Shown here: positions 25,321 to 48,485 of the stretch, in pieces
How the letters are laid out: every line of letters starts with the position of its first letter
Position numbering within the stretch: the first letter of the stretch is position 1
Assembly (NCBI RefSeq): GCF_022024055.1
Contig: NZ_CP091788.1
Coordinates: 620,001-684,000, forward strand
From: Prevotella sp. E2-28
GTDB taxonomy: Bacteria > Bacteroidota > Bacteroidia > Bacteroidales > Bacteroidaceae
Direction of reading: 5' to 3'
DNA: 64,000 nucleotides
Notes under the pieces: generated by a model
Seen by the model: the letters and a program-made list of their open reading frames with translations, nothing else
Told to the model about the DNA's origin: nothing
Database searches by the model: none
Made by a program: the position numbers and the translations under genes

Positions 25321-25324
25321 TCGT

Positions 25325-30384: not shown

Positions 30385-31917
30385 TTAAGATGAACGCAAC
30401 TCACCTGGTACTTTTCCATATTCATCCTTGAAACATTTGGTAAAGTAACTAGGTGAAGTGAAACCAACGGCATAAGCTACCTCACTTACACTCTTGTCGG
30501 TAGTAAGCAGCATCTGGTAGGCTTTTTTCAGGCGGGCAGTGCGTAGCAGTTCCACAGGGGAGGCATCAGTAATAGATTTCACCTTGCGATAGAGCTGCAC
30601 ACGACTGAGGTTCATATCAGCGGCCAGATCTTCCACACTGACATCGCTATCATCGAGACGTGCTTCAACAACCTCCTTAAAGCGAGTAATAAAGAGGGAG
30701 GTCGCAGCAGGATCATCATGTTCTTCCTGTTCCTGATTACTATCGGACGTTTCCTCCTGCATGACAGCTGTCTCCTGATTAACGGAGGGCACTAAAGGCT
30801 TCATGTCCCACAAGGTGTTTACCACACGCTCCTTTTGAAGAGTTATCCTTCTCAGATGATAGAGATAGAACAAGACTATAATCACGATGAGAAGAACGAC
30901 TACACCAATGGCCAACCAACTGACTACGCGCTGAGTATCGAGTTCATGAAGATAGCCATCGGCCTTCCTGTGCAATTGGTCCAAATGAGCCGACTGACGC
31001 ATGATTTCCTCGCTCTCCATCAGTAGCACCTTGGCATTATCACGAGTAACGAGAGCTGACATCATCATGGTTTCCTTTTCATAAGGCTTGCCTTCAAGTA
31101 TTCTAATGGCCAAATCGATAATCTGGTCACCATGAGTGGGATAAATATATGAGGCATCAAGTAGCGAATCACGTACTAACTGGATGCCGCCATTTTCACC
31201 AGGCAGACCATCGATGCCGCAGTATTTTATTGTGGATGTCCCTAAAGCTATGCGGGCACCCATTGCCATTCGGTCATTTTGACCAAAGACGAAATCGATA
31301 TTGTTCAAGTCACCCTGATAGTCTTTCACGGCCTTGACGGCGCTTTCCTCCGTCCAGTCGCCTTGAAGCGTAGCCACAACTTCTATATTGGGGAAGTTCT
31401 TTAAGGCATCAGCAAAGCCATTATGGCGCTCAATGGCAGGTGACGAGCCTTCAAGTCCCATGATTTCCACGACACGTCCTTTTCCATGTAGTTGTGAGGC
31501 GATGTATTCACCCATCAAACGGCCCATCTCGTAGTTATCGGCAGAGATGAAGGCGGTGAACTTCTGTGAATTGGTCTTGCGCTCGAACACAATGACGGGA
31601 ATGCCCTTGTCGAAGGCACGGTCGATGGCAGGAGAAATTGTCGCCACCTGATTAGGTGCAACAATCAGAAGGTCAATACCCGTAGCCACGAGACTGTCTA
31701 TCTGCTGAACCTGTCGCTCGTCACTATCATAAGCGGCAGCAAATCGCAGTTCCACATCACCTTGTAAGTAGGCACCCATCCTTAGTTCCGCATTCTGCTT
31801 CTCCCGCCAGATGTCTTCTGAACATTGCGACACTCCTATCTTATGCCGCTTCCCACTTTGCGAGCAGGAAGTCAAAACAACCAATATTATAATAACGCAC
31901 AAATTCAGTTTCTGCAT
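30385..31917 (-). CDS. Membrane sensor-AraC regulator of fructan locus, kinase-less
   Basis: A 510-residue one-protein sensor and DNA-binding regulator. An N-terminal signal with a cysteine in VVLTSCSQS (about residue 18) is followed by a type-1 periplasmic sugar-binding domain (about 25-300), with FDKGIPVIVFERK and FVFGQNDRMAMGARIALG as in LacI/RbsB proteins. One membrane helix follows (VVSWLAIGVVVLLIVIIVLF, about 330-352), then an acidic linker and an AraC-type HTH (about 410-508; DLAADMNLSRVQLYRKVKS, EVAYAVGFTSPSYFTKCF). In B. thetaiotaomicron the fructan sensor BT1754 joins the same kind of sensor to histidine kinase, receiver and AraC domains. Here kinase and receiver are missing and the linker is far too short to hide them. 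It probably senses fructose and activates the locus. Confidence 0.88.
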   Translation of the reverse strand: MQKLNLCVIIILVVLTSCSQSGKRHKIGVSQCSEDIWREKQNAELRMGAYLQGDVELRFAAAYDSDERQVQQIDSLVATGIDLLIVAPNQVATISPAIDRAFDKGIPVIVFERKTNSQKFTAFISADNYEMGRLMGEYIASQLHGKGRVVEIMGLEGSSPAIERHNGFADALKNFPNIEVVATLQGDWTEESAVKAVKDYQGDLNNIDFVFGQNDRMAMGARIALGTSTIKYCGIDGLPGENGGIQLVRDSLLDASYIYPTHGDQIIDLAIRILEGKPYEKETMMMSALVTRDNAKVLLMESEEIMRQSAHLDQLHRKADGYLHELDTQRVVSWLAIGVVVLLIVIIVLFYLYHLRRITLQKERVVNTLWDMKPLVPSVNQETAVMQEETSDSNQEQEEHDDPAATSLFITRFKEVVEARLDDSDVSVEDLAADMNLSRVQLYRKVKSITDASPVELLRTARLKKAYQMLLTTDKSVSEVAYAVGFTSPSYFTKCFKDEYGKVPGELRSS

Positions 31918-31938
31918 AACACATCAATTTTTCGGCTA

Positions 31939-31946
31939 CAAAAGTA
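31939..31946 (-). promoter_or_regulatory. -7 element of the fructan regulator gene
   Basis: TACTTTTG on the minus strand ends 21 bases before the ATG at 31917. Upstream is a pyrimidine-rich run on the + strand, and I see no -33 match. Confidence 0.5.
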
Positions 31947-32100
31947 CTTCTTTTTTTCTTTTTTTTGCTCTTTTTTGGGAAAAAGTGAAATAATAATGCA
32001 ATAATTTATTCTCAAAAGCATACAATATTAAGAAAAACGCCATAGCAAAGGTTTATTAAGGTTTAACCTATCAGAAAGGCATTAGAAAAATGAATATTAA

Positions 32101-32132
32101 TTTGGTAGAGTCCCTTTTTTGTTATACCTTTG
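32101..32132 (+). promoter_or_regulatory. Consensus promoter in intergenic region
   Basis: TTTG (32101-32104), a 20-base spacer and TACCTTTG (32125-32132) on the + strand. The predicted start falls at the first bases of the hairpin at 32135. No gene on the + strand follows. Confidence 0.75.
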
Positions 32133-32134
32133 CA

Positions 32135-32290
32135 CCCGACAAGAGCCATTTAGACAGGCTGGTGGCTCATTGTCGGGTGTTCTTCGACAAGCGAAGCGGC
32201 AAAGCCGAGCGCATTGATACAGTTTATAGAGAATGTGGAATTGAGAACGGTCTCCAAATCGTAACCTTGTTTTTCCTCAATTCCCCAGAC
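32135..32290 (+). ncRNA. Candidate structured RNA with own promoter
   Basis: Immediately after a consensus promoter come four successive hairpins: CCCGACAA-GAGCCA paired with TGGCTC-A-TTGTCGGG (32135-32177, 14 bp with one bulged A), CTTCG/CGAAG (32182-32196), CGGC/GCCG (32197-32207), and GGAATTGAG/CTCAATTCC (32237-32284, 9 bp, 30-base loop). No plausible protein is encoded. Its size of about 150-190 bases would fit a 6S-like or other regulatory RNA of Bacteroidetes, but I cannot match it to a named family. The 3' end is uncertain, as there is no clear terminator before the dispersed repeat. Confidence 0.5.
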
Positions 32291-32322
32291 TGCCTTTATT
32301 TAAAGAAATCCAGCAAATTCTT

Positions 32323-32446
32323 ACAAAGTTACGAAAAAACGAAGGAAAAGCCAAATTTATTTGAGCTTTTCTGAGTGCTAGTAACTTCGGCGAAGCCAAA
32401 GTTACGAAAAGTCGAGTAAAATGCAAAAGGAAAACTTGTTTTTCTT
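32323..32446. repeat. Dispersed 124-bp repeat, copy B
   Basis: Second copy of the block at 16171-16294, in the same orientation, with three differences. Both internal minus-strand promoter pairs are preserved. Here no minus-strand gene lies close downstream: they would read back across the RNA candidate toward the fructan regulator. Confidence 0.9.
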
Positions 32447-32982: not shown

Positions 32983-34305
32983 TTATTCAAAAGTCACCTT
33001 AGTCAGTTTATAGCCAAAGCCTGTGATGAGCATACCCTTGGCGTCAGCAATGGCCTTATGGTCAGCTGTGTAGGTGAACTCATAGGGGTTGGGCTGAGCA
33101 TCGAGGCCGTCAACCTGAGGCACGATGTCGCTTGTCCAATCCTGGTTGGTGACACGCAAAGCATGATATTCGGCATCAATGATATCGAAGGTCAGACGAA
33201 CAGTAGCACCAACAGGAACATCGGCCATCTGTTCAGGAGAGAGGTATACATTGGCATCGCCCCAGTTGATATCCGAGGCACCTTCCCACAATGTGGTCTC
33301 TGCAGGAGCAACACCCTCGACAACAATCACCTTGGTCAACTTATAGCCAAAGCCCGTGATAAGCATACCCTTGGCATCAGCAATAGCCTTATGGTCGGCG
33401 GTGTAGGTGAACTCATAGGGGCTGGGATAAGACTCGAAACCGTCAACCTGAGGAACGATGTCGCTTGACCAGTCTTGGTTGGTGATGCGTAAAGCATGAT
33501 ATTCGGCATCAGGAACTTCATAAACCAGGCGAATCGTAGCACCAACAGAAACATCGGCCATCTGTTCAGGAGAGAGGAATACATTGGCATCGCCCCAGTT
33601 GATATCTATGCTACCCTCCCAGAGCACAGTCTCCTTAATGCCCGGATCTACATATTCATCATTGCTTACGGTAAACCAGCCACAGCCATAGCGTGTGCCG
33701 CTCTCGTCCTGAATGCTGACCATATATTCGCCTGCGTCCATTTGGGGCACGTCGAAAGTAACCTTTCCGTTAGCATAGGATACGTTGCTGGCCTCCTGCT
33801 GACCAATAAACACCTTCTCGACGGTGGTCACATTCGTGCATTCGATGGTCTTGGTGGTACCTATAGTGAGCCAGCGAGACTTGGCATCGGTGGCCAGTTC
33901 GGGGTCGCCAGCCAAGGGGCGTACCACGAGCTTGCAGGTGCGAGAGGTTGAGAGTCCCATAGTGGTGGTTGCCACAATTTTCAGGATATGGTCGCCAGCC
34001 AATACGGGGACATCGATGGTAAGGCCTTCGGCCACCTTCTCATCATCAATGAGCCATGTGACAGTAGTATAGTTTACAGGAGTCACAATGGCCTCGAATG
34101 TAAAGTTCTGGGTGCGATCGATGGTCGTCAGCACTGCAGGTTCGCCATTCTTTCCTTCTGGGATGTCTGTGTTCAGAATGCGTGGAGCATCGTTCTCACT
34201 GGCAGTGAAGAACGGGTCTTCGTCGCTTGAGCAGGCTGTAGTCGCAACCAAACCGAAGCCCACAAAGAACATGGCGAGATATTTTGAAATATTCTTGGTA
34301 ATCAT
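32983..34305 (-). CDS. Surface glycan-binding-like lipoprotein with duplicated domain
   Basis: A 440-residue lipoprotein at the SusE/F position of the beta-glucan locus. The lipobox is VATTACSSDED (Cys about residue 25). Ig-like segments follow to about residue 220, for example FEAIVTPVNYTTVTWLIDDE with a PKD-like look and an IPT-like segment ending GYCGW-like GYGCGWFTVSND. The C terminus is two nearly identical domains, residues 226-329 and 337-440, each starting LWEG.SDINWGDAN and ending GFGYKLTKV. The same domain type appears once in the secreted protein at 21152. Aromatic residues (LWEG, NW, QDW) could form sugar-stacking sites, which is inference. No catalytic motif is seen. It is last in the operon, 35 bases after susD. 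Confidence 0.8.
   Translation of the reverse strand: MITKNISKYLAMFFVGFGLVATTACSSDEDPFFTASENDAPRILNTDIPEGKNGEPAVLTTIDRTQNFTFEAIVTPVNYTTVTWLIDDEKVAEGLTIDVPVLAGDHILKIVATTTMGLSTSRTCKLVVRPLAGDPELATDAKSRWLTIGTTKTIECTNVTTVEKVFIGQQEASNVSYANGKVTFDVPQMDAGEYMVSIQDESGTRYGCGWFTVSNDEYVDPGIKETVLWEGSIDINWGDANVFLSPEQMADVSVGATIRLVYEVPDAEYHALRITNQDWSSDIVPQVDGFESYPSPYEFTYTADHKAIADAKGMLITGFGYKLTKVIVVEGVAPAETTLWEGASDINWGDANVYLSPEQMADVPVGATVRLTFDIIDAEYHALRVTNQDWTSDIVPQVDGLDAQPNPYEFTYTADHKAIADAKGMLITGFGYKLTKVTFE
32986..33630. repeat. Tandem duplication inside lipoprotein gene
   Basis: Two direct copies offset by 333 bases (111 codons), spanning 32986-33297 and 33319-33630, remain highly similar at the DNA level, including many synonymous positions. 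This indicates a recent duplication. Confidence 0.85.
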
Positions 34306-34339
34306 AGTTTTCTCTTTTTTACTTTTAAACTTTTTTCTC

Positions 34340-36085
34340 TTATTTCACGTTGATGTCTTTTACATCCCACCAGAGACGCTTGTGCCAGTCATCCTTACCA
34401 CCCAAGCGATTGAGGGCGTCAGTATAGTTGGCCTTGTTGTATTTGTTCTCAAGGAGGGGATAACACAGACGAGTAGGTGTCTGGAGGTTATTGTCATCGT
34501 AGGTGAAGTCGGATTCAAACTTACTCAACATTGTGCGGTCACGTAGCGCGGGATAGTCGCTTCTGCGCAGGTTAGCCCATGCTTCGGCGGGATTCATCAT
34601 GTGCAGAATCCAAGCCTGGGTGTTGATAGCTTCCTTAGCATTGGTGCTCAGAGCAGTGGCTTGAGATGTCACGAAAGTATTAATCTCAGCATCAGAGATG
34701 CTATTGGTCGTATTCAGATATTGCTCATTCATCCACTTTATTGAAGCTTTGATGCCAGCGTTAAAGTGATCCTTTATGGTACCAGGCACGTTCCATCCGT
34801 TCAGTTTTGCCTCTGCCAACAGGAACTCAACCTCGGCAGAAGTGATGAGTGTACCTGGGCGGTCAGGCATTTCGAAATCAATAGACAAGAAAGGACGCAT
34901 CATGCGGGCTGGATAGTTACTACCATCGAAACCTGCTTCAGGATACTGCTGAACGAGTTTGTCGAGGGTGGGGATAGCAGAGTTGGCAGGTGCATTAACC
35001 CAGTTGTTCCACCAAGCAGCACCTGGGTCACAGGGGTGCTCAGTTTCACCAGCACTCGTCAGATAAGCCAAAACCTCGTCGGTCACGTCAACATTCCACT
35101 CGCGGTCGGGCTTAATCTCACTACGCTTCGTGTTGATATAGTGGCGGCAGATGCGATACAAGCGGGGATCGTTGCTATTGTTCAGGATGTTGAATAACGT
35201 TGAACATACAAAAGTAGGAGAGGTAGGATCCTGACCATAGAGAATTTCGCCCAAAGCATTTACACGGAAGTCTAAGTCGCGTGAGCCATCATATAGCGTG
35301 AAGGGACCGTCAGTATAGATAATGTAGGCATCTTCACTGGCTTCGGTGATATAGCCACCTTCGTCTGCCAATGCCTTTTCAAATTCCTGCTGAGCCTTGG
35401 TGGGGTTCACCTCGCTAATACGCATGGCGTAGCGCAAGCGCAGTGAGTTTGCATACTTACGCCAAGCAGCAGCATCACCGTTCAGACTTGTTACATCACC
35501 TCCAATGCGGTCGGTGCCAGTGCCCAATTGTGCTGAACATTTGGTGAGTTCGTCGAAGATAAAGTCGTAAATAGTTTCCTGAGTGTCGTACTTAGGAGTT
35601 GAGATGTTTTTGATGAAACCAAGACCAGCTTCTGTGCAAGGCAGGTCGCCATAGGTGTCGGTGAGTACAGCCATCAAGTAAGCACGGTGAATACGCAGGG
35701 CAGCGTTAGTGTTAGGCTTGTCCTCAGAGTTATAGATGGCATCTACTAGGTTCTTGATAGACACGGCATAGTATTGATCCCAGATAAGGCGCATCTGATC
35801 ATCATTGGCATGCACACTGCCAGCATAGTTGCTGACGTTCCAGCCACCAGCAAAATGCTGAGTAAAACCAGTGATATAGCTGCGATAAGTATCCATCAGG
35901 CCGAAATCACCATAGGTCTGCAGCAGGGCTGTGGTTAATTGTGCGCTGGGGTCGATAGAAGTGGCTTTACTCTCGTCAGTATTTACCTCTTCCATGTAGT
36001 TGTCGCTGCAAGCTGTGAGAACTGCTGTCATGCAGAAGCATACAGAACAAGCAACGAAAGTATTCTTAATATATTTTGTAATCAT
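34340..36085 (-). CDS. susD: SusD-like lipoprotein (beta-glucan locus)
   Basis: A 581-residue lipoprotein with lipobox AVLTACSDNYME (Cys about residue 26). It belongs to the SusD/RagB superfamily, nearer the SusD-like_2 branch, whose members open with DNYMEEVNTD and DPSAQLTTALLQTYG. Conserved pieces are RIHRAYLMAVLTDTYGDLPC near residue 130, AWRKYANSLRLRYAMRISE near residue 208 and the C-terminal AWILHMMNPAEAWANLRRSD. It should bind oligosaccharide over the SusC channel. It begins 15 bases after susC and is followed by the duplicated-domain lipoprotein. Confidence 0.92.
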   Translation of the reverse strand: MITKYIKNTFVACSVCFCMTAVLTACSDNYMEEVNTDESKATSIDPSAQLTTALLQTYGDFGLMDTYRSYITGFTQHFAGGWNVSNYAGSVHANDDQMRLIWDQYYAVSIKNLVDAIYNSEDKPNTNAALRIHRAYLMAVLTDTYGDLPCTEAGLGFIKNISTPKYDTQETIYDFIFDELTKCSAQLGTGTDRIGGDVTSLNGDAAAWRKYANSLRLRYAMRISEVNPTKAQQEFEKALADEGGYITEASEDAYIIYTDGPFTLYDGSRDLDFRVNALGEILYGQDPTSPTFVCSTLFNILNNSNDPRLYRICRHYINTKRSEIKPDREWNVDVTDEVLAYLTSAGETEHPCDPGAAWWNNWVNAPANSAIPTLDKLVQQYPEAGFDGSNYPARMMRPFLSIDFEMPDRPGTLITSAEVEFLLAEAKLNGWNVPGTIKDHFNAGIKASIKWMNEQYLNTTNSISDAEINTFVTSQATALSTNAKEAINTQAWILHMMNPAEAWANLRRSDYPALRDRTMLSKFESDFTYDDNNLQTPTRLCYPLLENKYNKANYTDALNRLGGKDDWHKRLWWDVKDINVK

Positions 36086-36100
36086 AATAGTATCTTCTCT

Positions 36101-39100
36101 TTAGAATTTAACGTTGACGTTGAAACCATAGCTGCGGCGTGAGGGCAGCGAACCATATTCTAGACCAAGACCAGAAGTGTTGTAACCAGAGTCTGGATCG
36201 ATATTAGGAATGTTCTTCCAAACGATAAATGGATTGCGGGCAACGAATGAAACGCTCAGGCCTTTTACATATTTGCCAACCATCTGTTCTGGGAAAGTAT
36301 AGCCTAAGGTAATCTCACGGCACTTCACATACGAGTTGTCGTAGATGAACATCGAGGGAGCATTGTCGGCAGCACTCTTCCAATATGATTCGGGGTTTAC
36401 TGGAATGTTGTTGGGGCTATAAGTGCCGTCAGCGTTTTCGAGAACACCAGGCACAATGTAACCCTCACACTTGCCTGCAGCACGCCATTCTTCGATGGTC
36501 ATGTTGGCAGCCTTACGGTTCTCTTCTGAGCGGTACCACTCTTCGCGACCAGCCAGTGTGCCAGCAGCTTTACCAGTGGCATAAGCCGAGCGCATGGACA
36601 TTGAGAAGAGGTCGGCACCAACCTTCACGTCGAAACCTGCGGAGAGACGGAAGTTCTTGTAGGTCAGGGTAGAGTAGAAACCGCCTGTCCAGTCCCAAGA
36701 GGCATTACCCAGTGTGTGGGTGGTCTCGCTAACATAGGGCAGACCGCTCTCAGGATTGATGAGCACGTCACCGTTTTCGTTGCGCTGGAAGTCTCGGCCA
36801 ATGATGCTGCCGTAGTTTTCGCCTACCTCAGCACCTACAGAGACACCACACCAGGTGGCCTTCTCCAGTTCGAAGTAATCCATGCCATCCACGAGCGACT
36901 TCACCTTATTGACGTTCTTCGAGAAGTTCACGCCAGCATCCCAGGCAAAGTCCTTGATCTGCAGCACGCGACCGTTCAGGGCCACCTCGATACCTTTGTT
37001 CTGGATTTCGCCGGCATTCACAAGGCGATAGTTATAACCAGAGGTTGATGAAGAGGCCAAACCTATAATTTGGTCCTTAGATAACTGGTTGTAATAAGTT
37101 ACATCCAGACCCAGACGACCTTGGAAGAACTTCATCTCCAGACCCAGTTCGAATGAATTGGTGCGGGTGGGCTTCAGATCTTTATTGGGCTTTGTACTGT
37201 TGTTAATCATACCAATAACATAGCCACCATATGAATACTTGCCAGTGGTGTAGCTCAACGCCAATTGATAGGGATCGGTATCACTACCAACCTGAGCCCA
37301 AGAAGCACGGAACTTACCATAGTTGATGATGCTCTTGTTCTTAAGGAATTCAGAGAAGACAACGCTACCAGAGAAAGAAGGGTAGAGATAGACATTGTTG
37401 CTGACGGGCAGGGTAGATGACTTGTCGCCACGAAGCGTTGCTTCCAAATAGTAGGTGTGCATGTATCCTACGCTGGCTGATCCAAAGAGAGAGTTTATCT
37501 GTTTCTTATAGGTGTTCTGTTGAATGCTCTGTTGAGCGTAGTTCATGATAGCAACCACGTCCTTCATCTGCTGGTCTGTGCCAGTGAAGATGCTGGTCTT
37601 GTTGTCCACCTTGAAAATATTTCCACCAAGGGTGGCATTCACGTCGAAATCACCAAACTGATTGTTATACAGTGCCAGCAACTCGGCATTCAGTGTGCGG
37701 TTGTTATAGTTCTGGTTCTGCAGTTGTCCGGCAGACTTACCAGGCGTAGTGCGGCAGATGAAGTCTTCGAACGTCATGAAGTTCATGTCGGTACCTACGG
37801 TGCCTTGCAACTTCAAGTGCTCGTTGATGTTCCATATGGCCTTACCTGTCAGACGGAATACATCCTTTGCTGAGGTGTTCTCATTCTTATAGAGGTCCCA
37901 ATAGGGGTTCTTGTTATATTGGTCGTTACCGTTCCAGTTGGCATAGTCACCATCGCTGGTCTCATAGTTCTTTAACCAAGCCTGGTTATAAGTGCCTGCC
38001 AGTGTCATAAGGTTTTTACCAACGTTGCTTTGAGAGTCACCCAAAGCAGGACGGTTCTTCACATCTTCACGGGTGTAGTTGGCTGTGAAGTCGAAGTCCA
38101 CAGGACCGGCTGATGTGGTGACGCGCAGGTTAAAGTTATCACGGCTCATGTGTGTGTTAGGCAGGATATCTTTGTTGCGCATATCGGTCATTGAGAAGCG
38201 GACACCAGTCTTGCCAGAGTTCACACTCATGACAGCTGTGTTCTGGGCTGTCATACCTGTGCGGAAGAAGTCACGAGTATTGTTGGGATACATCTGGAAG
38301 GGACGCTTCTCATGGTCAAAATACTCTACTAGGAAGTTGTCTGCCTTGGCACCCCAGCTGGCATTGGTACCTGTGGTAGCAGTGCGACTGTATGCACCAC
38401 CGTAACCCATACCATAGGTCTGCTGGATGTCGTCCCATTGTGAACTCTGTATATCGAATGTCAGCGAACCATTGTATTCAATGCTTATCTTGTCCTTCTC
38501 GGCCTTTTTAGTAGTGATGAGAATCACACCATGAGAAGCACGGCTACCATAAAGGGCTGAAGCGGCAGGACCTTTCAGAACCGTCATGTTCTCAATATCG
38601 TCAGGATTGATAGCCGAGATGCCATCGCCTAGATCGTAGCCACCTTCTGTGCCGGCACTTGCGAAGTTCGTATTGTCGAGGGGCACACCGTCGATGACAT
38701 ACAGAGGCTGGTTGTTTCCTGTCAACTCGGTATTACCACGTAGCATGACGCGTGTAGAGCCAGAGTTGCCACCAGCTGTTTGGTTAACGACCAGACCAGC
38801 TACCTTACCCGCCAATGAGTTCATGACATTAGTCTCTTTTGCTTTGGTCAGTTCATCTCCTTTGACTTCTGCTACTCCATAACCCAGTGCTTTGCGCTCG
38901 CGCTTTACACCTAAGGCAGTTACAACGACCTCACTCAATTGAGTCTTGTCTTCTTCCATCTTGACTTTCATGCCATTTTGGGCTTTTACCTTGATGGTTG
39001 TGTAACCCACATAGCTGATTTCCAGCATATCGCCAGGTTTACACTTGATGGAAAACTTTCCATTGAGGTCTGTGACAGTACCAACATTGGAATCTACAAC

Positions 39101-39271: not shown

Positions 39272-39302
39272 TGTTGATTTGGTAATATTTATTTTTCAGA
39301 TG

Positions 39303-40643
39303 TTAACGTTTAATGGGATAGATGTATAGCAATCCAATCATGATAAGTGCTATGAGAGCTGGGAATACGGAGAATAGAGCCCAAATCATGCTGTTGACGG
39401 AATCTGCATCGGTTATGGTGATGACGGTCTGGCCATCAGCATCAGTACCCGAGATGAAACCGGCAATACCCAGCAAGAGAGCCACAAGTGAGCCACTGAT
39501 TGCTGTACCGAATTTCTGCGACATAGTACCACTAGAGAAAATAAGACCTGTAGAAGATGTTCCGTTCTTTTCTGTAGCATAGTCGGCTACATCGGCATAC
39601 ATCGACCACAATAGTGGTGAATACAGACCAATACCGATTGAGGTGATAATCACGATCGCAACGAGCACCCATATATAGGCAGCGTCCATGGGAACAAAGA
39701 AGAATCCTACAGATGTCACTACGCAGATAAGGGCAGCCCACATAAAGGCCTTGCGCTTGGAACCTACCCATTTGGTAAAGATGGGAGATACGCCACCGAA
39801 GACCATGCAGGTCAACTCGCCAAAGGTCATAAACACTGTGTAGTTGATAATGAATCCACTGACGGTGACATCACCATGTAGGCAGTACTCGAACATATAA
39901 CCAGCTACTGCAAAGCGGAAGCCATTGAAGAAGTTCGTGCAGATGCCTACAAGGGTGAGAATAATCCAAGGACGATTACGGAACAAATCACCAAAGGGTT
40001 TCAGTGAGAACTTCTCTGCACGTACAGGCTTCAGACGCTCTTTGGTCAACAAACCGCAGGCCAGTGTGCCGGCAGCTGCAATGACACCAAAGAAAGCTCC
40101 CAGAACGGCATATTGGTGTTGGTCGCTTCCGCCAACGATTTTCTGCAGATAGGGGAATGACAACAACGTGATGAAGCCCATAGCGTAGGCACCTACCATA
40201 CGGTAGCTTGAGAATTGGTTCTTCTCATTGTCGTCCTCAGTCATCACTCCCAGGAGTGAGCCATAGGGTACATTGACAGCCGTATAGACCATCATCATCA
40301 GCAGATAGAGTGTATAAGCCCAGATACGCTTACCTGTAGGTCCAAACTCAGGCGTGTAGAGCAGTAATGCAAAGATGAGGCCAAAGGGAATGGCTCCAAA
40401 GATTATCCACGGGCGATAGGTGCCCCATCGGCTCTGCGTGCGGTCAGCTAATGAACCCATCAATGGATCTGTCACCACATCAAACATACGGGCAATGAGC
40501 ATTAGCGTTGCAGTATCGGCAACTGTTAGTCCAAAGACGTTTGTGAAGAACAGGGGAAACGCAATCGACATGACTTTCCATGTAATACCACCTGCTGCTG
40601 CATCTCCTAATGCATACCCTATTTTTTCTTTTAACTGTGCCAT
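39303..40643 (-). CDS. GPH-family sugar:cation symporter
   Basis: A 446-residue inner-membrane transporter of the glycoside-pentoside-hexuronide family with 12 predicted helices. Typical features are IGYALGDAAAGGITWKVMS at the N terminus, DVVTDPLMGSLADRTQSRWG near residue 60, and the YRPWIIFGAIPFG segment. It lies four bases from the GH94 phosphorylase gene, so it most likely brings cellobiose or short cello-oligosaccharides into the cytoplasm for phosphorolysis. The ion (Na+ or H+) cannot be told. Confidence 0.9.
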   Translation of the reverse strand: MAQLKEKIGYALGDAAAGGITWKVMSIAFPLFFTNVFGLTVADTATLMLIARMFDVVTDPLMGSLADRTQSRWGTYRPWIIFGAIPFGLIFALLLYTPEFGPTGKRIWAYTLYLLMMMVYTAVNVPYGSLLGVMTEDDNEKNQFSSYRMVGAYAMGFITLLSFPYLQKIVGGSDQHQYAVLGAFFGVIAAAGTLACGLLTKERLKPVRAEKFSLKPFGDLFRNRPWIILTLVGICTNFFNGFRFAVAGYMFEYCLHGDVTVSGFIINYTVFMTFGELTCMVFGGVSPIFTKWVGSKRKAFMWAALICVVTSVGFFFVPMDAAYIWVLVAIVIITSIGIGLYSPLLWSMYADVADYATEKNGTSSTGLIFSSGTMSQKFGTAISGSLVALLLGIAGFISGTDADGQTVITITDADSVNSMIWALFSVFPALIALIMIGLLYIYPIKR

Positions 40644-40647
40644 AGCT

Positions 40648-43161
40648 TTACATTGTTACTTCTACGATGTGATGACCAGGGGTGGCCTTGATGATAACGC
40701 CTTCAATAGCAGAACCATCGAGAACAATACTGCTTACACCGCTTTGCTTACCGTTAGGATTTCGAACGATAATATCAAAAGTGGTATCGCGTAAAACACG
40801 ACGTACTTTGTATTCTTTCAAAGTAGAGGGAATACATGGATCAATTTCTATACCGTCGTAGGTCGGCTTGATACCCAGAATATACTGTGTAATGGTGAGC
40901 CAGTTCCATGCTGCGGTACCTGTGAGCCAAGAGTTCTTGCCTTCGCCAGGCTTGGCAGCATCTTTACCTGCTACCATCTGACAATAGACATAAGGCTCCA
41001 CTTTGTGCAACTGTTGATCTTTAATCCATGCAGGACAGATCTTAGTGTAGTGTTCCCAAGCATCATTGCCACGACGAGCTACGGTCTCACCGATGATGAC
41101 CCAAGGATTGTTGTGGCAGAAAATACCGGCATTTTCCTTATAGCCAGCAGGGTAGCTGGATATCTCTCCCATCTCTACATGATAGGTTGTGAAGGCAGGG
41201 TTATTGAGCACCATGCCATGTTCGCAATCCAGGTATTTCTTGCAGGAGTCGAGTGCTTTATCAACCATTCCGTCTTCCTGACCGATGCCAGCCATTGTGC
41301 AGAAGCCCTGACTCTCGATGAAGATTTTTCCTTCTTCGCATTCTTTTGAACCGATTTTATTGCCGTAGAAGTCGTAGGCACGCAGATACCACTCACCGTC
41401 CCAACCGTGTTTCTTCACAGCCTCGACCATCGAGTCGATGCATTTCTGGGCGCGGTCGGCTTCCGTCCTGTATACGTCGCCATCTACTGAATCGGCCAGC
41501 TTTTTACAAAGCTCTACATACTCCTTACCTGTGAATACAAACAGACCGGCAATCATTAGTGATTCAGCCTTTGACCCTTCACTATTATTTTCTGTGGTCT
41601 GGAAACTCTCGTTGGGGTCCCATGAGAAGCAGTTCAGGTTCAGACAATCGTTCCAGTCGGCACGACCTATGAGAGGTAACATGTGAGGACCAAGATTTTC
41701 CACCACATGGTTAAACGAGATGCGGAGGTGCTCGAAGAGTGTTACTTCTGAGCCTGGCTGGTTATCAAAAGGCACCATTTCATCGAGGATAGAGAAATCT
41801 CCCGTCTCCTTGATATAGGCTACAGTGCCAAAGATAAGCCAGCAGGGATCATCGTTAAAACCGCCACCAATATCGTTATTGCCACGTTTGGTCAGAGGTT
41901 GATACTGGTGATAGCAGCCACCATCAGGGAATTGTGTTGATGCAATGTCGATGATACGCTGACGGGCACGACTTGGAATCTGATGTACAAAGCCCACGAG
42001 GTCCTGATTAGAATCGCGGAATCCCATGCCACGTCCTACGCCGCTCTCGAAGAATGAGGCCGAGCGCGAGAAACAGAACGTAATCATACACTGATACTGG
42101 TTCCAGATATTTACCATACGGTCCAGACGCTCGTCGCCACTTTCTACGGTGTATTTCGAAAGCAAATTGTCCCACATTTGGCGCAGTTCCTCAAAAGCAG
42201 CATCTACGGCTTCTACGGTAGAGAAGCGAGAGATGGTGTCGTGAGCCTTGCACTTGTTGACCAGTGTCACATCAGAGTCTTGTGAACTGATAAGCTCCCC
42301 TTTGCGTTTACGCTCGATATCCTCTACAGAGAACTTCTCGTCTTGTTCATTCTCCACATAGCCCAGTAAGAAGACAAAGACCTTCGACTCGCCAGGCTGC
42401 AACTCAACCTCTATGTATTGTGAGGCAATGGGGCTCCAACCGTGAGCCAATGAGTTAGAAGGCTTGCCAGCCACTACGCATTGTGGGTTAGAGAAGTCAT
42501 TATACAGTCCGATGAATGATTCGCGATCGGTATCGTAACCATTCACTTCGGCGTTGGTCAGCGCATAGTAGGCATAATGATTGCGGCGCTCTTTGTATTC
42601 TGTCTTGTGATAGATGGTGGCACCACCATTCTCTATCTCCACCTCACCTGTTGACCAGTTGCGCTGGAAGTTCTCCATGTCCGTAGCGGCATTCCACAAA
42701 CACCACTCTGTGAAAGAGAATAGTTTCAGGTGCTTTACCTCGTTGCTGGTATTCTTCAGCGTAAGCTTTTGCACCTCGGCCCAGGTCTTCAAGGGAACAA
42801 AGAAGAGTATAGAAGCCTCTACACCATTCTTACTACCAATGATGCGGGTGTAGTTCATGCCGTGACGGCACTCATAAGAATCAAGTTGTGTCTTGCAGGG
42901 CTTCCAACCTGGCGACCAAATGTCCTTACCGTCGTTGATATAGAAATAACGACCACCTGCATCCATAGGCACACCATTATAGCGATAGCGGGTGATTCGG
43001 CGGAACTTGGCATCTTTATAGAAGTCATAACCGCCAGCTGTGTTTGAGATGAGGCCGAAGAAATCCTCGTTGCCCAGATAGTTGATCCAAGGGAACGGTG
43101 TCGCTGGATCGTTAATCACATATTCTCTGTTCTTATCGTCAAAAAAACCAAATGTTTTCAT
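40648..43161 (-). CDS. GH94 cellobiose/cellodextrin phosphorylase
   Basis: Cytoplasmic enzyme that splits cellobiose or cellodextrin with phosphate to glucose-1-phosphate and a shortened sugar, saving ATP. The 837-residue length is typical of the family. Landmarks are [20 protein letters not shown] near residue 100, [20 protein letters not shown] near residue 380, the substrate-binding [20 protein letters not shown] near residue 415 and the catalytic aspartate in [10 protein letters not shown] near residue 500. There is no signal peptide. Cellobiose phosphorylase is favoured over laminaribiose or chitobiose activity because of the two GH5 genes, but the sequence alone does not settle this. 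Confidence 0.93.
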
Positions 43162-43182
43162 ATTTGTTATTTTGTTATCTTA

Positions 43183-44307
43183 TTATTTTCCTGTCAGCAA
43201 GTCCACCAATGGCTTATCCTTGAAATCGTTCTTCTGCTGATCCCAGAACCCGAAGTCGGCATCATAGCACCATGTTGTCCATGCAATGTTAAACTCATCA
43301 AAGACGCTCAACATGTCCTTGGTCCACTTGTAAGCCAGTTCGCGATTAACAGGTTCATAGACACCCCATTCGCCGCAGAACAACTGTAGATCGTACTTCT
43401 TTGCCACCTCGATGGCATCCTTGAAGTCCTCGCGAATTCTGTTAACGTCCCATACTTGTGTGAGATAGGGCTCCAACAAAGGCTTCAGTGTATCAGGTGC
43501 TGCCTCATAATCTTCCTTTGATACTAGCACGCCAGGGTAGTTTACCTCACCAGTGTATCTGCCGATTGGCGTCCACCAAGCACCATAATGAGTCAGAATC
43601 ATGGGATTGTAATAATGGAATGAGAGCACAATATTCTTATCACCCTCGGGCACTTTCAGAAATTTCATGGTCTCGTAGCCCTGCCACAGATTTGAACCGA
43701 TGACCAGTGTACGCTGGGGCTCACGCTCACGTAGAGCCTTGTGTACCTTGGCAATCAATTGATTCCATTGCTCATGCTTTTCTGCTACAGGCTCATTCAT
43801 AAACTCATAAGCCACAGAGTCGTTACTATAGCCCTTCAGAGCGTCCGATAATTCGTACCACATATTGATGAGTTGCTGCTGCGCCTCCTCAGAAGTAAAC
43901 AGTGTGTTAGCATTTCCATCACCCTCATTTACGGCGTTGAAATAGTGTGAACGGATGATATGCAGGTCAACGATAGCACGTAGGTGGTGCTTGCCACACT
44001 GGTCAAGGGCGAAGGTCAGCAAGTTCCATGCTTCAGGTAGCTTGTTTCCTTCTTCATCCCAAAACTGCACTTCATCAATAGGGATACGTACGAAATCGAA
44101 TCCCAGTGAGTCCAGACGTGCAAAATCGTCCTCTTGGATGTGCAACTGGCGAGCCTCGCCACGCTCTTCTGACTGTGATAGCCAGTGGCTGAGGTTTGTA
44201 CCGCGGTGAATACGGAAGTCATTCACTTCGTTGTTTTTCTCATTCTTGGTCGAACAGGCTGAGAAGACCAGCACGACAGCGGCAAAAATGGTTAAGATCT
44301 TTTTCAT
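43183..44307 (-). CDS. GH5-family glycosidase lipoprotein
   Basis: A 374-residue lipoprotein (lipobox VLVFSACSTKNE, Cys about residue 18) of clan GH-A, family GH5. The N-terminal IHRGTNLSHWLSQ and FDFVRIPIDEVQF form the first barrel strands. The acid/base Glu is in YEFMNEPVAEK near residue 170 and the nucleophile Glu in LFCGEWGVYEP near residue 315. Conserved SFHYYNPMI lies between them. It is predicted to cleave beta-glucan or cello-oligosaccharides at the surface or in the periplasm. The subfamily is uncertain. It lies between GH5_4 and GH94. Confidence 0.88.
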   Translation of the reverse strand: MKKILTIFAAVVLVFSACSTKNEKNNEVNDFRIHRGTNLSHWLSQSEERGEARQLHIQEDDFARLDSLGFDFVRIPIDEVQFWDEEGNKLPEAWNLLTFALDQCGKHHLRAIVDLHIIRSHYFNAVNEGDGNANTLFTSEEAQQQLINMWYELSDALKGYSNDSVAYEFMNEPVAEKHEQWNQLIAKVHKALREREPQRTLVIGSNLWQGYETMKFLKVPEGDKNIVLSFHYYNPMILTHYGAWWTPIGRYTGEVNYPGVLVSKEDYEAAPDTLKPLLEPYLTQVWDVNRIREDFKDAIEVAKKYDLQLFCGEWGVYEPVNRELAYKWTKDMLSVFDEFNIAWTTWCYDADFGFWDQQKNDFKDKPLVDLLTGK

Positions 44308-44354
44308 TTCAATCTATTGTTATAATGTTTTTGTTATTTCGTTCTTATAAATGA

Positions 44355-45578
44355 TTATTTGTTTTTGCCTTCCATGATGCCAGTCAGCACCCAGTCGGCC
44401 TTAACCTTCATGTTGGCTCTGCGATCAAAAATGCCGAAGTGCTCAGGACCGCTACCAAAGGAGTTGTTATCCCATACGAAGGTTGAGAAACCACGCTTCT
44501 TAGCTTCGCTGACTAGGAAACGACAGTAATAAGTCATGTTTTCGTGGATGAGTTCGGTTTGTCCAGCCTTCTGACGATCACTGACACCCCATTCGCCCAT
44601 CACGACGCCAAGACCTTGATTGGACCATGTGTTCACTACTTTGTCGAAGAATTCGCTCATGGTTTTTTCGTTGCTTTCCGAGGCCTCGCCCTTGTCCTTG
44701 TAAGGTGTGCCCCAGAAATTGTACTTACACTCGCCAGCATAGTCCCAAGGCGTATAGTAATGAAACTCTACACTCATAAAGTCGTTGCCGTTGCCCTCAA
44801 CATCCGTAGGCACGATGAAATCGCCATTATTGATGCCGAAATCAGGGTTACAAACGTAAGTCTGTACGATGAGGTGGCGTTTTTCATTGTTACCGCCAGT
44901 GGCACGTACCACGTCGATGAATGTTTGGTTGTATGAGTTCTGCACAGCCAGGTTCTCGGCAGTAGGCTTGCCCCAATTGTCCTTGACGTGTACTTCATTG
45001 GTACCGGCAAAAGCTACACGATAGTCATACTGGGTAAACTCGCTGGCGATGTTCAGCCATAGCAGAGCCAACTTCTGATTGTTCTCTTCTTTATATGCAT
45101 TGGTGGGGCGACCTTCCAACCACTTGTCGTGGTGGGTGTTGATAATCACCTTCAAGTCGTTTTGTAGGCACCAGTCCACCACCTCTTTAATGCGTGAGAG
45201 CCATGCCTTGTCTATGCTCATAGCCTGAGGATTGGTGATATGGCACTGCCAGCGTACAGGAATACGTACGGCATTGAAGCCAGCTTCCTTTACGGCCTTA
45301 ATCATCTTTTTTGTCACTACGGGATTGCCCCATGCTGTTTCTGCCTTGATGCTATTGTCTGGCATACCAATCAACATTGACTCGCCGTCTTGACCAGGAG
45401 CTGAACATTCAAACTGGTTGCCAAGGTTCCATCCTACCACATCGGCATTCCATTCCTTAGCTGTGGGGGCTTTTGTTGCATTAGGTTCATTTGTCTCGTC
45501 AACGGACTGACTGCCGCAAGCCAGCATACTACTAGTTGCCAGCACTGAGAACAAGAAAGTAGAAAAAAATCTTTTCAT
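44355..45578 (-). CDS. GH5_4-like endo-beta-glucanase lipoprotein
   Basis: First enzyme gene of the beta-glucan operon, 407 residues. The lipobox is SSMLACGSQS (Cys about residue 21). Motifs of GH5 subfamily 4 are VVGWNLGNQFE, FNAVRIPVRWQCHI, VIINTHHDKWL, FAGTNEVHV (acid/base Glu, NEV replacing the common NEP), VEFHYYTPWD and the nucleophile in VVMGEWGVSD. GH5_4 enzymes act on mixed-linkage glucan, xyloglucan or cellulose. The gene has its own -7 box at 45608 and a pair of direct repeats upstream that may be the regulator's binding site. Confidence 0.9.
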   Translation of the reverse strand: MKRFFSTFLFSVLATSSMLACGSQSVDETNEPNATKAPTAKEWNADVVGWNLGNQFECSAPGQDGESMLIGMPDNSIKAETAWGNPVVTKKMIKAVKEAGFNAVRIPVRWQCHITNPQAMSIDKAWLSRIKEVVDWCLQNDLKVIINTHHDKWLEGRPTNAYKEENNQKLALLWLNIASEFTQYDYRVAFAGTNEVHVKDNWGKPTAENLAVQNSYNQTFIDVVRATGGNNEKRHLIVQTYVCNPDFGINNGDFIVPTDVEGNGNDFMSVEFHYYTPWDYAGECKYNFWGTPYKDKGEASESNEKTMSEFFDKVVNTWSNQGLGVVMGEWGVSDRQKAGQTELIHENMTYYCRFLVSEAKKRGFSTFVWDNNSFGSGPEHFGIFDRRANMKVKADWVLTGIMEGKNK

Positions 45579-45651: not shown

Positions 45652-45696
45652 AAAAAAGGTTTCAAAACTGTAATCTGATAGTTTTGAAACCTTTTT
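45652..45696. terminator. Bidirectional terminator after beta-glucan regulator
   Basis: Perfect 12-bp arms GGTTTCAAAACT (45658-45669) and AGTTTTGAAACC (45680-45691), extended by A-run and T-run pairing. On the minus strand it ends in TTTTTT. The right arm also belongs to the direct-repeat operator candidate. Confidence 0.8.
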
Positions 45697-45713: not shown

Positions 45714-48485
45714 CTATTTTTGATATTTGGAAGGGGATATGTCGAAATATTTCTTGAATACCGTACTGAAATACTTCGGATTTTCGAAGCCTGTCATGGC
45801 TGCAACATCAGATACGTTATAGCCATTTCGCAGCATAGAGGCAGCTCGTTCTAATCGGATAATACGGATGAAATCTTGTGGCGATTTTCCCGTGTAGGAC
45901 TTCAGCTTAACGTAAAACAGGGTGCGACTCATAGCCATCTCACGACATAGTTGGTCGATGTTAAATTCGGAATCGCTGAGGTGTTCTACAATCAGTTGCG
46001 TTGCTTTATCTACAAAATCCTTACCACTGTCTTTCTCATCTGTTGGTTCTGGAGCCGCAACAGGTAGAGGTGTCGCAGGTTTTACTGCTTGTAGGTGGTC
46101 AATGGTCAGTCGCATGTATTTTTCGTGCAGTTCATATACGCGCCATGCACCATAGAACAATAATAAAATGAATGCGAAATAAATGCACCACATCCACCAT
46201 GTGTTCCACCACGGTTGGGCAATGATGATAATTAGTTCTTTTGTGTCAATCACTGTACCACTGGTTCGGCTTATGCATTGTAGGGTGAAACGATGCTTGC
46301 CAGGTTCCATACTGACGAAGCTGATGTACTGCTGGTCAAAGGGCTGGCTCCACTTTCCGTCGTCAATCATATAACGATAGTTAATGTCGTAGTGGTTGCG
46401 CATGTTCACACTTTCAAACAGCAGGTCGAATGATCTCTGGTTATAAGCTAAATGTATTTCCCCCCTTTCCAGATTTGAGAAAAAGCGTTTGTTTTGAAGT
46501 GCCTCTTGCTCTACTTCACAATTCACACCAAGGAAAATGAGATTGGCAGTATAATTAAGTGCCTGAACATTCTCTGGATGAATAATCAAAGCACCTGTTG
46601 ATGTTCCGAAAATGATATCACCGTTAGGCAGATTGCCTGATGCGCCAAGTGAATAATCACGGTTTAATCCATAGCAATAATTGACGTTAATGACCTGATT
46701 AATCTTGTCGGGCATTACAAACGAAAGTCCCTCGTCAGTTGCAATCCATATACGTCCGTCCTTGCCCTTGACAAGACTTCGCACATAGTTGGAAGGTAAT
46801 CCATCTGCAGTAGTTATCTGTTTGCTTTCATGTTTTGCCAAGTGGTAGATATAAATACCACCGCCATCAGTCGCAATCCATAAGTTTAGTCCTTCAGTGA
46901 GCAGATGGTTAACGAAAGGATTGACATCAGTAATCCCCGAAGGCGCATAATTCAGTTCCTTGATTTCTTCATTGCCTGGCGTGATAAGTTTCAGGCCAAA
47001 AGCAGTACCTACAGCAATCTGCCCTGATGTCAATTGAATGATTGCCTGTACATCATGGATAGGGTAATACTGAGGTGTAGGATTATTGGGGGATTTGTAA
47101 TAAAGGTCACCATTCAGGCTTCCCACCCACAGCCCACCGTCCTTGTCATACAGCGTGGCATAGACATGATTATCAGTCAACGGGCTGTTGTTCGTAGTAT
47201 AGATGTGACGTATGTTTGCTTGATTGTCAATTTCATATACACCTCTTCCGTATGTTGATACTAGTACATTCCCGTCGGGCGTTCTTGATGCATTAAGAAC
47301 GACGGTGCCTTGACCACAATGTTGCCATAAGCTAGTTTTGGAATTAAAGATGTTGATACCATTATCGGTACCAATGAGTATTAAGTCGTCAGACAATGCC
47401 ATGACCGTGTTGACATGGTCGTTTGACAGGCTTTGATGGTCATTTGCTATATGGCGGAATATGGCGGTGGTGCTACCTACCGGCCGTGCAATGTCTATTC
47501 CTCCGGAATAAGTGCCGATGATAATGTTCTTCCACGTGTCAACAGCAATACTGTAAACGCCGTTTCCATGTAGCACGCTATGTTCGCTTTCGTTTGCATC
47601 GAATAGTAGTGAGCATTCTCCCTGTCCATCGCGCGCCATTTGCCAAACACCCTCGCCATCAATACCGAATAACATCGTCTCATCGTCGTAAGGGCAGATA
47701 CTACGGATGGGGTTACCCTGTGTGGAGCCACTGGTAAGACTAATAAAATGGTCGGTTGCAATAGTTCCATCCTGTTTGAATGTCACAATATGCAGACCAT
47801 TTTCATAGCCACCCAGCCATAGCTTACCTGATAGCTCATCATAGTAGCCGCTTTCGGTGTTGTAGGAAAGTAATTGTTTTCCTTTCTCGTTGTAAACACC
47901 TTCGCGTGCACAGAAAAGCAGACCGTCTTTAGTTGGTATGATGCGATTAACGTAAACGTCTTTGATGATTTGCTTTAGCGAGTCATTGGCAAAAGAATAT
48001 ACACCGTTGTGTAAAGCCAAGAAGAATATGTCTCCTTCAATATGAATGTCATTGAGTGCTACATCGTAGCCTATGATACTTGAAATACTGGTATGGAATT
48101 CAAATACGTCGCGTATAGGATTGTATGCATAGATAGAACCACGATTGTCAAAGGCATATATATGTGAGGAATCTGTGGCTAAATAAATGAAACGTCCTCC
48201 CATGTGAGCGTATGGCGTATTTTGCTCAAGCGAATAACTCTTAAGACGAGATCCGTTGTAACGCCCAATGCCAGTAGAAGATGACCACCAGATAGCACCG
48301 GAAGGTGCCTGAGTGATAGAGAATACACGCAAACTTGGCATTCCTTCGTTTTTCCCTAGATGTGAAAACGTAAAGTCCTTTACCTGTATAGCTTTGCTGC
48401 TAGTGGTTAGCAGCATGAGCAACAGGATAATCTTTATTTTAATAAGATGGTGTATTGTTTTATATTCTTTCGAATGACTCTTCAC
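45714..48485 (-). CDS. Propeller sensor-AraC regulator, kinase-less (beta-glucan locus)
   Basis: A 923-residue membrane regulator resembling a hybrid two-component system without its kinase. After a signal peptide (IILLLMLLTTSSKA) comes a large periplasmic region of two-component-type propeller repeats, for example GGLWVGSLNGDLYYKSP, LWIATDGGGIYIYHL and GRIWIATDEGLSFV. A Y_Y_Y domain follows (INYRYMIDDGKWSQPF), then one membrane helix (WWMWCIYFAFILLLFYGAWRV), a 40-50 residue linker rich in Pro and acidic residues, and an AraC HTH (QLCREMAMSRTLFYVKLKS, DVAAMTGFENPKYFSTVFKK). Typical hybrid systems are 1300-1400 residues. I choose GTG 48485 with AAGGA eight bases upstream, because the longer frame from TTG 48512 overlaps the -7 box. 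Confidence 0.88.
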   Translation of the reverse strand: MKSHSKEYKTIHHLIKIKIILLLMLLTTSSKAIQVKDFTFSHLGKNEGMPSLRVFSITQAPSGAIWWSSSTGIGRYNGSRLKSYSLEQNTPYAHMGGRFIYLATDSSHIYAFDNRGSIYAYNPIRDVFEFHTSISSIIGYDVALNDIHIEGDIFFLALHNGVYSFANDSLKQIIKDVYVNRIIPTKDGLLFCAREGVYNEKGKQLLSYNTESGYYDELSGKLWLGGYENGLHIVTFKQDGTIATDHFISLTSGSTQGNPIRSICPYDDETMLFGIDGEGVWQMARDGQGECSLLFDANESEHSVLHGNGVYSIAVDTWKNIIIGTYSGGIDIARPVGSTTAIFRHIANDHQSLSNDHVNTVMALSDDLILIGTDNGINIFNSKTSLWQHCGQGTVVLNASRTPDGNVLVSTYGRGVYEIDNQANIRHIYTTNNSPLTDNHVYATLYDKDGGLWVGSLNGDLYYKSPNNPTPQYYPIHDVQAIIQLTSGQIAVGTAFGLKLITPGNEEIKELNYAPSGITDVNPFVNHLLTEGLNLWIATDGGGIYIYHLAKHESKQITTADGLPSNYVRSLVKGKDGRIWIATDEGLSFVMPDKINQVINVNYCYGLNRDYSLGASGNLPNGDIIFGTSTGALIIHPENVQALNYTANLIFLGVNCEVEQEALQNKRFFSNLERGEIHLAYNQRSFDLLFESVNMRNHYDINYRYMIDDGKWSQPFDQQYISFVSMEPGKHRFTLQCISRTSGTVIDTKELIIIIAQPWWNTWWMWCIYFAFILLLFYGAWRVYELHEKYMRLTIDHLQAVKPATPLPVAAPEPTDEKDSGKDFVDKATQLIVEHLSDSEFNIDQLCREMAMSRTLFYVKLKSYTGKSPQDFIRIIRLERAASMLRNGYNVSDVAAMTGFENPKYFSTVFKKYFDISPSKYQK

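Follow-up and report, generated by a model that had tools for sequence, protein, structure and literature searches.

We analyzed a window of 64,000 nucleotides from Prevotella sp. E2-28 (contig NZ_CP091788.1, positions 620,001 to 684,000), in which two AraC-type regulators, P0002 and P0001, stand beside a fructan and a beta-glucan locus, respectively. We consider it likely that both are one-component transmembrane activators that arose from hybrid two-component systems (HTCSs) by loss of the phosphorelay, stepwise in the fructan lineage and with output cassettes exchanged between sensors. The initial annotation of the window had proposed a kinase-less, membrane-tethered design shared by two unrelated sensors; the HTCS ancestry, the ATPase-less intermediate that seems to survive in relatives and the apparent exchange of cassettes go beyond it. 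The two regulators comprise the following features.

30385..31917, minus strand: P0002 regulator gene, 510 aa, with an output cassette of the alpha kind (Pfam, structure search, model, hydropathy)
30922..31845, minus strand: P0002 sensor, residues 25-332, a relative of the BT1754 sensor 2x7x
30859..30921, minus strand: single membrane helix of P0002, residues 333-353 (hydropathy and reading)
30802..30858, minus strand: P0002 juxtamembrane segment, residues 354-372, with the alpha motif, here LQKERVVNTLWD, commonest form QRERVVNTLWN
30391..30699, minus strand: AraC-type DNA-binding domain of P0002, about residues 407-509 (Pfam)
45714..48485, minus strand: P0001 regulator gene, 923 aa, with a propeller plus Y_Y_Y sensor, one membrane helix and an AraC head
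46137..46193, minus strand: core of the P0001 membrane helix, about residues 765-783 (hydropathy and reading)

Architecture and ancestry of the two regulators

Both genes, on the minus strand as first described, encode kinase-less proteins with a single predicted membrane anchor. P0002 consists of an N-terminal signal, a type-1 sugar-binding sensor, one membrane helix, a juxtamembrane segment, a low-confidence, disordered linker and an AraC helix-turn-helix (HTH); in its predicted structure, a single helix (residues 292-370) crosses the membrane and is followed by an unstructured stretch to residue 402 and then the head. With Pfam at E<=1, P0002 matched Peripla_BP_4 and HTH_18, P0001 matched Reg_prop, Y_Y_Y and HTH_18, and neither protein matched the HisKA, HATPase or receiver families. 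The interval between the helix end and the conserved Phe that opens the HTH is 55 residues in P0002 and 40 in P0001, in line with the linkers of about 40-60 residues initially reported. The two sensors are unrelated: the closest solved structure to the P0002 sensor is 2x7x, the sensor of BT1754 (E 7.3e-79 across 307 residues); for the P0001 sensor, 3v9f and 4a2l come closest, both of them propeller sensors from proteins annotated as HTCSs. P0001 has a possible alternative upstream TTG start at 48512.

The suspicion that these genes are decayed hybrids with a separate kinase part downstream can be rejected. None of the 33 HATPase matches of the genome lies inside the window (620001-684000), so no split-off kinase is found near either gene. 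Moreover, uninterrupted frames with the kinase-less architecture were found in 75 of the 159 loci examined for the P0002 sensor family, as well as in 22 P0001 relatives.

The HTH phylogeny indicates that P0002 and P0001 descend separately from HTCSs, because each HTH groups with HTCSs that carry its own sensor family (support 97* for P0002 and 98* for P0001, whose heads form one clade with those of HTCSs bearing the sister sensor). By this grouping, the kinase and receiver, absent from both sensor lineages, were lost independently. Each protein retains a periplasmic sensor, a membrane helix (by hydropathy and reading) and an HTCS-lineage AraC HTH, but has no HisKA phospho-His, HATPase_c domain or receiver Asp. 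P0002 shares its sensor family, its place beside a fructan SusC locus and its AraC-type head with BT1754, the fructose HTCS of Bacteroides thetaiotaomicron, and differs from it in having no HisKA, HATPase or receiver. P0001 shares its sensor (33-39% identity) and its HTH clade with Reg_prop/Y_Y_Y HTCSs (3v9f, 4a2l and Prevotella L268-L276), some of which are followed by a similar inverted repeat, but it has no kinase or receiver.

Kinase-less relatives of P0001 differ from HTCSs in size. The P0001 sensor was found at E<=1e-80 in 60 of 273 genus genomes, in kinase-less frames of 912-1003 aa (identity >=43%) and HTCS-sized frames of 1295-1476 aa (identity <=39%). We classed these relatives by the length behind the sensor, since the H-box regex misses some true HTCSs: 151-184 residues follow the sensor in the 22 kinase-less relatives examined and 537-565 in nine HTCSs, with five split or cut rows left unclassed (G404 twice, G633, G585 and G645). 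Pfam detected no kinase or receiver in the two of the 22 that were scanned. No ATPase-less form was seen among the P0001 relatives examined.

An ATPase-less intermediate and exchange of output cassettes

The fructan sensor family occurs in three discrete architectures. The P0002 sensor was detected at E<=1e-25 in 49 of 392 order genomes, with frames of 900-1020 aa in 41 of the 58 matches listed, and in 222 of 276 genus genomes, where closely similar sensors fall into three size classes; the genome of the window holds a single member at E<=1e-25. We classified 159 loci as 75 kinase-less, 45 ATPase-less (HisKA and receiver kept), 36 full HTCSs and 3 truncated, using hidden Markov models (HMMs) built from two relatives, with which Pfam agreed on ten; 26 of the 36 full HTCSs end at the locus border before the HTH. 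In closed frames, the length behind the sensor is 152-209, 381-424 (one 496) or 543-577 residues. The sample combines 30 loci with 98 fetched rows from the matches listed in the genus survey, leaving 22 listed rows (887-989 aa) unfetched; class counts are thus not prevalences, because the genus matches were taken only in part. The fetched set comprises 100 regions (98 from the genus and 2 from other families). One further region (G018), with a 306-aa frame, was left unclassed. A further 80 loci, drawn from the same kind of species set and not independent of the main sample, gave 59 alpha, 5 beta and 10 ATPase-less proteins, 1 short one and five read as alpha variants.

The ATPase-less proteins retain their phosphorelay residues. 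The phospho-His is kept in 45/45 (34 HE, 11 HQ; readable full HTCSs have 25 HE and 10 HD), as is the receiver Asp. No HATPase was found in these 45 loci by a six-frame HMM search at E<=1e-3, nor by Pfam in the five scanned. Across kinase-less and ATPase-less loci together, the six-frame search gave a single match: it lies in L195 on the other strand from the regulator, and is probably a 366-aa frame (5038-6138) about 2.8 kb away. An initial regex had given 47 ATPase-less proteins; the HMMs moved L091 and L096 to the full HTCSs, while L161 and L200, with 12-bit HATPase pieces by HMM that were absent from the six-frame search, remain classed as ATPase-less.

ATPase loss probably came first in the fructan lineage, and once. 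In a sensor tree of 132 rows, the 15 full HTCSs form one side of a branch (86), and the kinase-less rows are interspersed with ATPase-less ones. This topology, in which full HTCSs split off and kinase-less proteins arise among ATPase-less ones, is the basis for the proposed order.

Kinase-less proteins of the genus carry two kinds of membrane helix, linker and head: alpha (n=64; QRERVVNTLWN) and beta (n=8; RRHRLERQ). All 64 alpha rows contain an LW or IW pair. In the flanking columns, counted in 58 rows chosen by a regex that itself requires the W, 56 rows have R at -3 and 54 have E at -4. The alpha linker is acidic and 28-104 residues long (64 rows). Kinase-less proteins of other families (L092, L236 and L237) have yet other linkers.

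The heads and sensors of these proteins have conflicting phylogenies. In an HTH-only tree of 87 rows (37/64 alpha and 6/8 beta used), alpha forms one clade (98/94), as does beta (99/94), and the tree of all 130 rows agrees (96* and 100*). The corresponding sensors are scattered in the sensor tree, and an AU test on the 87-row tree rejected a single sensor clade for alpha (p 1.2e-6), beta (p 3.6e-4) and all kinase-less proteins (p 5e-97). In the alpha protein L112, identity to four beta rows from the same sensor clade is 74% in residues 321-340 and 18% in residues 341-360; identity to alpha rows of other clades is 59% and 58%, respectively. The membrane helix of L112 begins near residue 336, where the similarity switches; projected onto P0002, this exchange point of its relatives falls at the start of the helix (30859..30921). 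Since the trees conflict and the switch lies at the membrane helix, recombination that exchanged output cassettes is the simplest account. Alternatively, the kinase-less forms could have arisen many times by independent deletion, with no cassettes exchanged. The sensor tree taken alone points this way, as the kinase-less label has to change 10 times on it, with no fewer than 5 of these changes forced by starred branches. We nevertheless consider repeated deletion unlikely, given the single origin of the HTH within alpha and within beta, the shared linker motif, the rejection of one sensor clade for the same rows and the switch in similarity at the membrane helix.

Several relatives extend the range of architectures in the family. 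L217 has an ATPase-less regulator followed by a second same-family sensor gene, as a tandem pair, and the regulator frames of L158, L220 and L347 stop shortly behind the sensor and are possibly frameshifted copies. P0002-type sensors at 30-33% identity are fused to a SpoIIE-like output in L373-L377 (family f50; Pfam on two, motif for three) and to a HisKA-HATPase kinase in L378 (G025). Frames of 671-736 aa from other families were also considered as ATPase-less candidates; among the eight of nine examined (G279:C45 was not), this held only for L080 and L081, the other six being L373-L378.

A conserved operator and the mode of signalling

Kinase-less, ATPase-less and full HTCS loci of the fructan family appear to share one operator, mostly at a fixed distance from the promoter box; on this pattern, the regulators changed and the site did not. 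The conserved element behind the regulator reads CGTTC(A/T)...TGAACG, with TGTTAC inside most copies, and a strict pattern found it in 44/64 alpha, 7/8 beta, 13/45 ATPase-less and 6/10 full loci. Read backwards, the pattern matched 0, 0, 1, 0 and 0 alpha, beta, ATPase-less, full and other loci, and shuffling gave means of 0.24, 0.06, 0.16, 0.04 and 0.02 loci, respectively. The match in L225, a full HTCS, has no core and is probably due to chance. Without L225, operators are 33-34 or 54-55 bp long, two forms that differ by about 21 bp. At 61 of 69 sites, the box pattern TAnn(n)TTTG, which we take to be the Bacteroidetes -7 element, begins at one of two distances: 31-32 nt behind long operators and 52-53 nt behind short ones. 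This keeps the outer half-site and the box about 86 nt apart; 5 of the remaining sites have no box and 3 have it elsewhere, and shuffled flanks contain a box in 8% of cases. The sites of the window, with the candidate P0001 site, are as follows.

30302..30356, minus strand: long operator (55 bp) between the P0002 gene and susC; box TAGTTTTG 31 nt behind, at 30270
22126..22158, no strand assigned: short operator (33 bp) upstream of 21152-22021; box 52 nt behind
21032..21064, no strand assigned: short operator (33 bp) upstream of the GH32 gene 19245-20945; box 52 nt behind and a second box-like match at 8
45657..45692, no strand assigned: candidate P0001 operator AGGTTTCAAAACT...AGTTTTGAAACCT, upstream of the GH5 operon (pattern search)

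The repeat could be a transcription terminator behind the regulator rather than an operator, in which case conserved DNA targeting would not be shown. Several copies form a hairpin followed by T by eye, and both other window sites likewise lie behind a gene. A terminator alone is a slim prospect, as base identity is kept (CGTTCA, TGTTAC, TGAACG), the two lengths stand about 21 bp apart with box distance fixed, and the pattern is confined to the fructan locus: a stricter version found three sites in the whole genome (3.76 Mb), all in this locus, with a control of 0.

The P0001 lineage has a candidate element of its own. The genome has two copies of the element AGGTTTCA...TGAAACCT, one of them here, ahead of the GH5 operon. 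One pattern matched 14/22 kinase-less and 2/9 HTCS loci and a longer one 10/22 and 1/9, both with 0 matches when read backwards. A promoter box lies 20 nt behind each site of the longer pattern, as in the window, where the candidate operator is accompanied by a third AAACC half-site and the box lies 20 nt behind that.

Direct transmembrane control, anchored and free of phosphate, is the best reading of these data, as the HTH and, where these sites are found, the operator and its promoter spacing are all retained in kinase-less relatives. Periplasmic sugar binding would alter the geometry of a sensor dimer, and this change would travel through the stalk, the membrane and the juxtamembrane helix. 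The distance or angle between helices would then bring two AraC heads, on flexible linkers, onto an inverted repeat that serves as operator and immediately precedes the susC or GH5 promoter. Dismantling in the fructan lineage would have begun with the ATPase domain, HisKA and receiver being kept at first and lost later; alpha and beta cassettes of membrane helix plus HTH would have moved between sensors through recombination at the edge of the membrane helix. In this scheme the architecture, the HTCS ancestry, the intermediate, the disagreement between sensor and head trees and, where found, the common operator with its spacing are read from the sequences; the dimer geometry, the ligand, activation while anchored and the dispensability of phosphate we infer. 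The initial comparison with ToxR and CadC is an analogy only, as these proteins differ in HTH type and topology.

Residues of the receiver-head contact speak to the loss of the phosphorelay. According to PMC11253607, the HTCS receiver holds the AraC head through S/CHIP in the receiver and an Asp and a Lys in the head, it is thought to restrain the head until phosphorylated, and the lock Asp is present in 95% of Bacteroides HTCSs. We mapped this alpha6 Asp to 39 residues before the recognition-helix Lys, as in BT4124; P0001 and P0002, with no receiver, cannot form the S/CHIP-DK contact. The Asp is kept in 16/21 fructan and 8/9 P0001-like HTCSs (together 24/30), but in 5/64 alpha, 1/23 P0001-type and 2/3 other kinase-less proteins. 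The recognition Lys is kept in 62/64 alpha, 8/8 beta, 45/45 ATPase-less, 22/23 P0001-type and 21/21 fructan HTCS proteins, and in 5/9 P0001-like HTCSs and 1/3 other kinase-less proteins. The lock residue has drifted in two of the three kinase-less groups of the genus, which is expected if nothing is left to lock; in ATPase-less proteins the drift had already begun.

Several observations weigh against transmembrane control and stepwise loss. The lock Asp is kept in 8/8 beta proteins, and in only 10/45 ATPase-less proteins, which still have a receiver. In a careful 87-row tree, support for the first split falls from 86 to 43/77. The strict operator is missed in 20/64 alpha, 1/8 beta, 32/45 ATPase-less and 4/10 full loci, a relaxed pattern reaches 16/45 ATPase-less loci, and kinase-less loci of other families have 0/3; the repeats also often precede T runs and may double as terminators. 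Finally, the P0002 model is a monomer (predicted local distance difference test [pLDDT] 73, predicted template modeling score 0.46), in which residues 360-402, covering the juxtamembrane motif and linker, have pLDDT <50.

The head might instead be released, with the ligand triggering regulated intramembrane proteolysis and the freed HTH acting in the cytoplasm. The acidic linker, of low model confidence and variable length (28-104 residues across the alpha rows), would be a plausible cleavage place, but simple release does not need the conserved alpha juxtamembrane segment, with its invariant LW or IW pair, and we doubt this explanation strongly. Even less probable is that the kinase-less protein pairs with a kinase-bearing HTCS that phosphorylates or drives the pair in trans. 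This would suit the conserved HisKA His and receiver Asp of all 45 ATPase-less relatives and the presence of kinase-less and ATPase-less forms together in some genomes (G505, G507, G617 and G621); P0002, however, has no receiver to phosphorylate, and models of a helper or a competitor are both disfavored because the genome of the window has one member of the sensor family at E<=1e-25. Least probable of all is a receiver-free head that binds DNA constantly and represses or blocks: substitutions in the receiver-head contact of BT4124 do give phosphorylation-independent DNA binding in B. thetaiotaomicron (PMC11253607), but the operator precedes the promoter box by the distance also seen in full HTCS loci, and BT1754, a Bacteroides relative with full HTCS architecture, is required to induce its fructan locus (PMC3404733).

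In a broader form of the proposed transmembrane control, the fructan regulators of Prevotella would show how a phosphorelay turns, naturally and step by step, into a mechanical switch. In ATPase-less forms, HisKA and receiver would pass the signal on without phosphate; kinase-less forms would drop both, and cassettes would be swapped under constant sensors and operators; the same may have happened in other lineages (G000:C1:2082503-2086258). We regard the case for and against this extension as evenly balanced.

Genomic context and comparison with known systems

The sensor-membrane helix-AraC design is common in this genome but exists alongside HTCSs, not in place of them. The genome has 32 HTH_18 matches, of which we examined 19 with longer frames, besides both window genes. 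Eight further kinase-less, single-span AraC proteins were found: three of propeller type (L064, L072 and the second gene of L068), four with TPR domains and one other. The propeller-type proteins and the one other have no SusC-like gene beside them by a crude regex. By Pfam there are three full HTCSs (L061, L062 and L069). An intact, HTCS-sized frame of 1251 aa (G000:C1:2082503-2086258, or L068:4004-7759) has a propeller, Y_Y_Y, membrane helix, receiver and HTH, with no match to HisKA or HATPase; by eye, it has Asp at the phospho-His position (ASDDLRQP) and Lys at the receiver-Asp position (VICKQDMP), so that both phospho-sites look lost. The suggestion that this design is a general strategy of the organism is therefore borne out by the eight additional proteins and limited by the three full HTCSs, one HisKA-HATPase-REC-HTH protein and the HTCS-sized receiver protein.

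Two other classes of AraC protein in the genome are of separate interest. L073, L074, L075 and L077, each a TPR domain, membrane helix and AraC head, form another kinase-less membrane class. L070 (G000:C1:1177417-1179099; 560 aa) is the opposite of the window regulators: it lacks a sensor domain and carries HisKA-HATPase-REC-HTH behind a short membrane helix at its N terminus.

The loci beside the two regulators are arranged as follows.

27110..30265, minus strand: fructan-locus susC, which directly follows the operator
17163..27073, minus strand: remaining fructan locus, with SusD, DUF4960, GH32 (BT1760-like C), a 289-aa unknown protein, GH32 (gene 19245-20945), MFS and PfkB
32983..45578, minus strand: beta-glucan locus, with two GH5, GH94, MFS_2, SusC, a SusD-like protein and a 440-aa unknown protein

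Pfam gave no match at 1e-5 for the 289-aa (21152-22021) or the 440-aa protein (32983-34305). We infer control of the beta-glucan locus by P0001. Among fructan-family loci in which a downstream gene is visible, the next large gene encodes SusC in 38/61 alpha, 7/8 beta, 18/36 ATPase-less and 7/9 full loci, counts from a crude regex that misses even the window's own susC and so undercounts, although some loci truly have other neighbors.

The fructan sensor may also be lipid-anchored. P0002 has a lipobox-like LTSC (residues 15-18, window 31864-31875) whose Cys is invariant across 62 aligned rows, and a lipobox regex matched 42/64 alpha, 5/8 beta, 28/45 ATPase-less and 19/36 full HTCS proteins.

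Polysaccharide utilization regulators are described as SusR-like, HTCS or extracytoplasmic function sigma factors, and SusR-like ones as structurally unrelated to HTCSs, with the mechanism of the first one undefined (PMC6874557). P0001 and P0002 resemble the SusR-like class in standing apart from HTCSs. SusR-like regulators have a membrane-spanning design. The head of ToxR and CadC is a winged helix at the N terminus. By prediction, P0001 and P0002 share with these proteins membrane anchoring, a periplasmic sensor, the absence of a kinase and a one-component design, but have an AraC head (HTH_18) at the C terminus and an HTCS ancestry. XylR of Escherichia coli (4fe4/4fe7), whose head is matched by the P0001 HTH, joins a sugar-binding fold to an AraC head and is cytosolic; P0002 differs from it by its N-terminal signal and by the membrane helix that separates its sensor from its head. 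Phosphorylation-independent signalling has been suggested for BT4236, an HTCS with Gln at its phosphorylation site (PMC11253607); there a site is substituted, whereas whole domains are gone in P0001 and P0002.

Kinase-less membrane regulators are already known (ToxR, CadC). Open-access titles and abstract openings held no description of an HTCS without kinase or without ATPase, which does not establish absence from print. In this family, the ATPase, and then HisKA and receiver, would have been removed naturally while operator and spacing persisted. This makes it testable what share of HTCS signalling is carried by phosphate and what share by a geometric change transmitted across the membrane; one sensor in its full, ATPase-less and kinase-less versions, all with a common operator, already provides a series for experiments. 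Kinase-less regulators may also bear on other fructan loci, such as the inulin locus of Segatella copri DSM18205, where no contiguous HTCS gene was reported (PMC11784079). Finally, exchange of cassettes at the membrane helix would offer natural splice junctions for building sugar-responsive switches.

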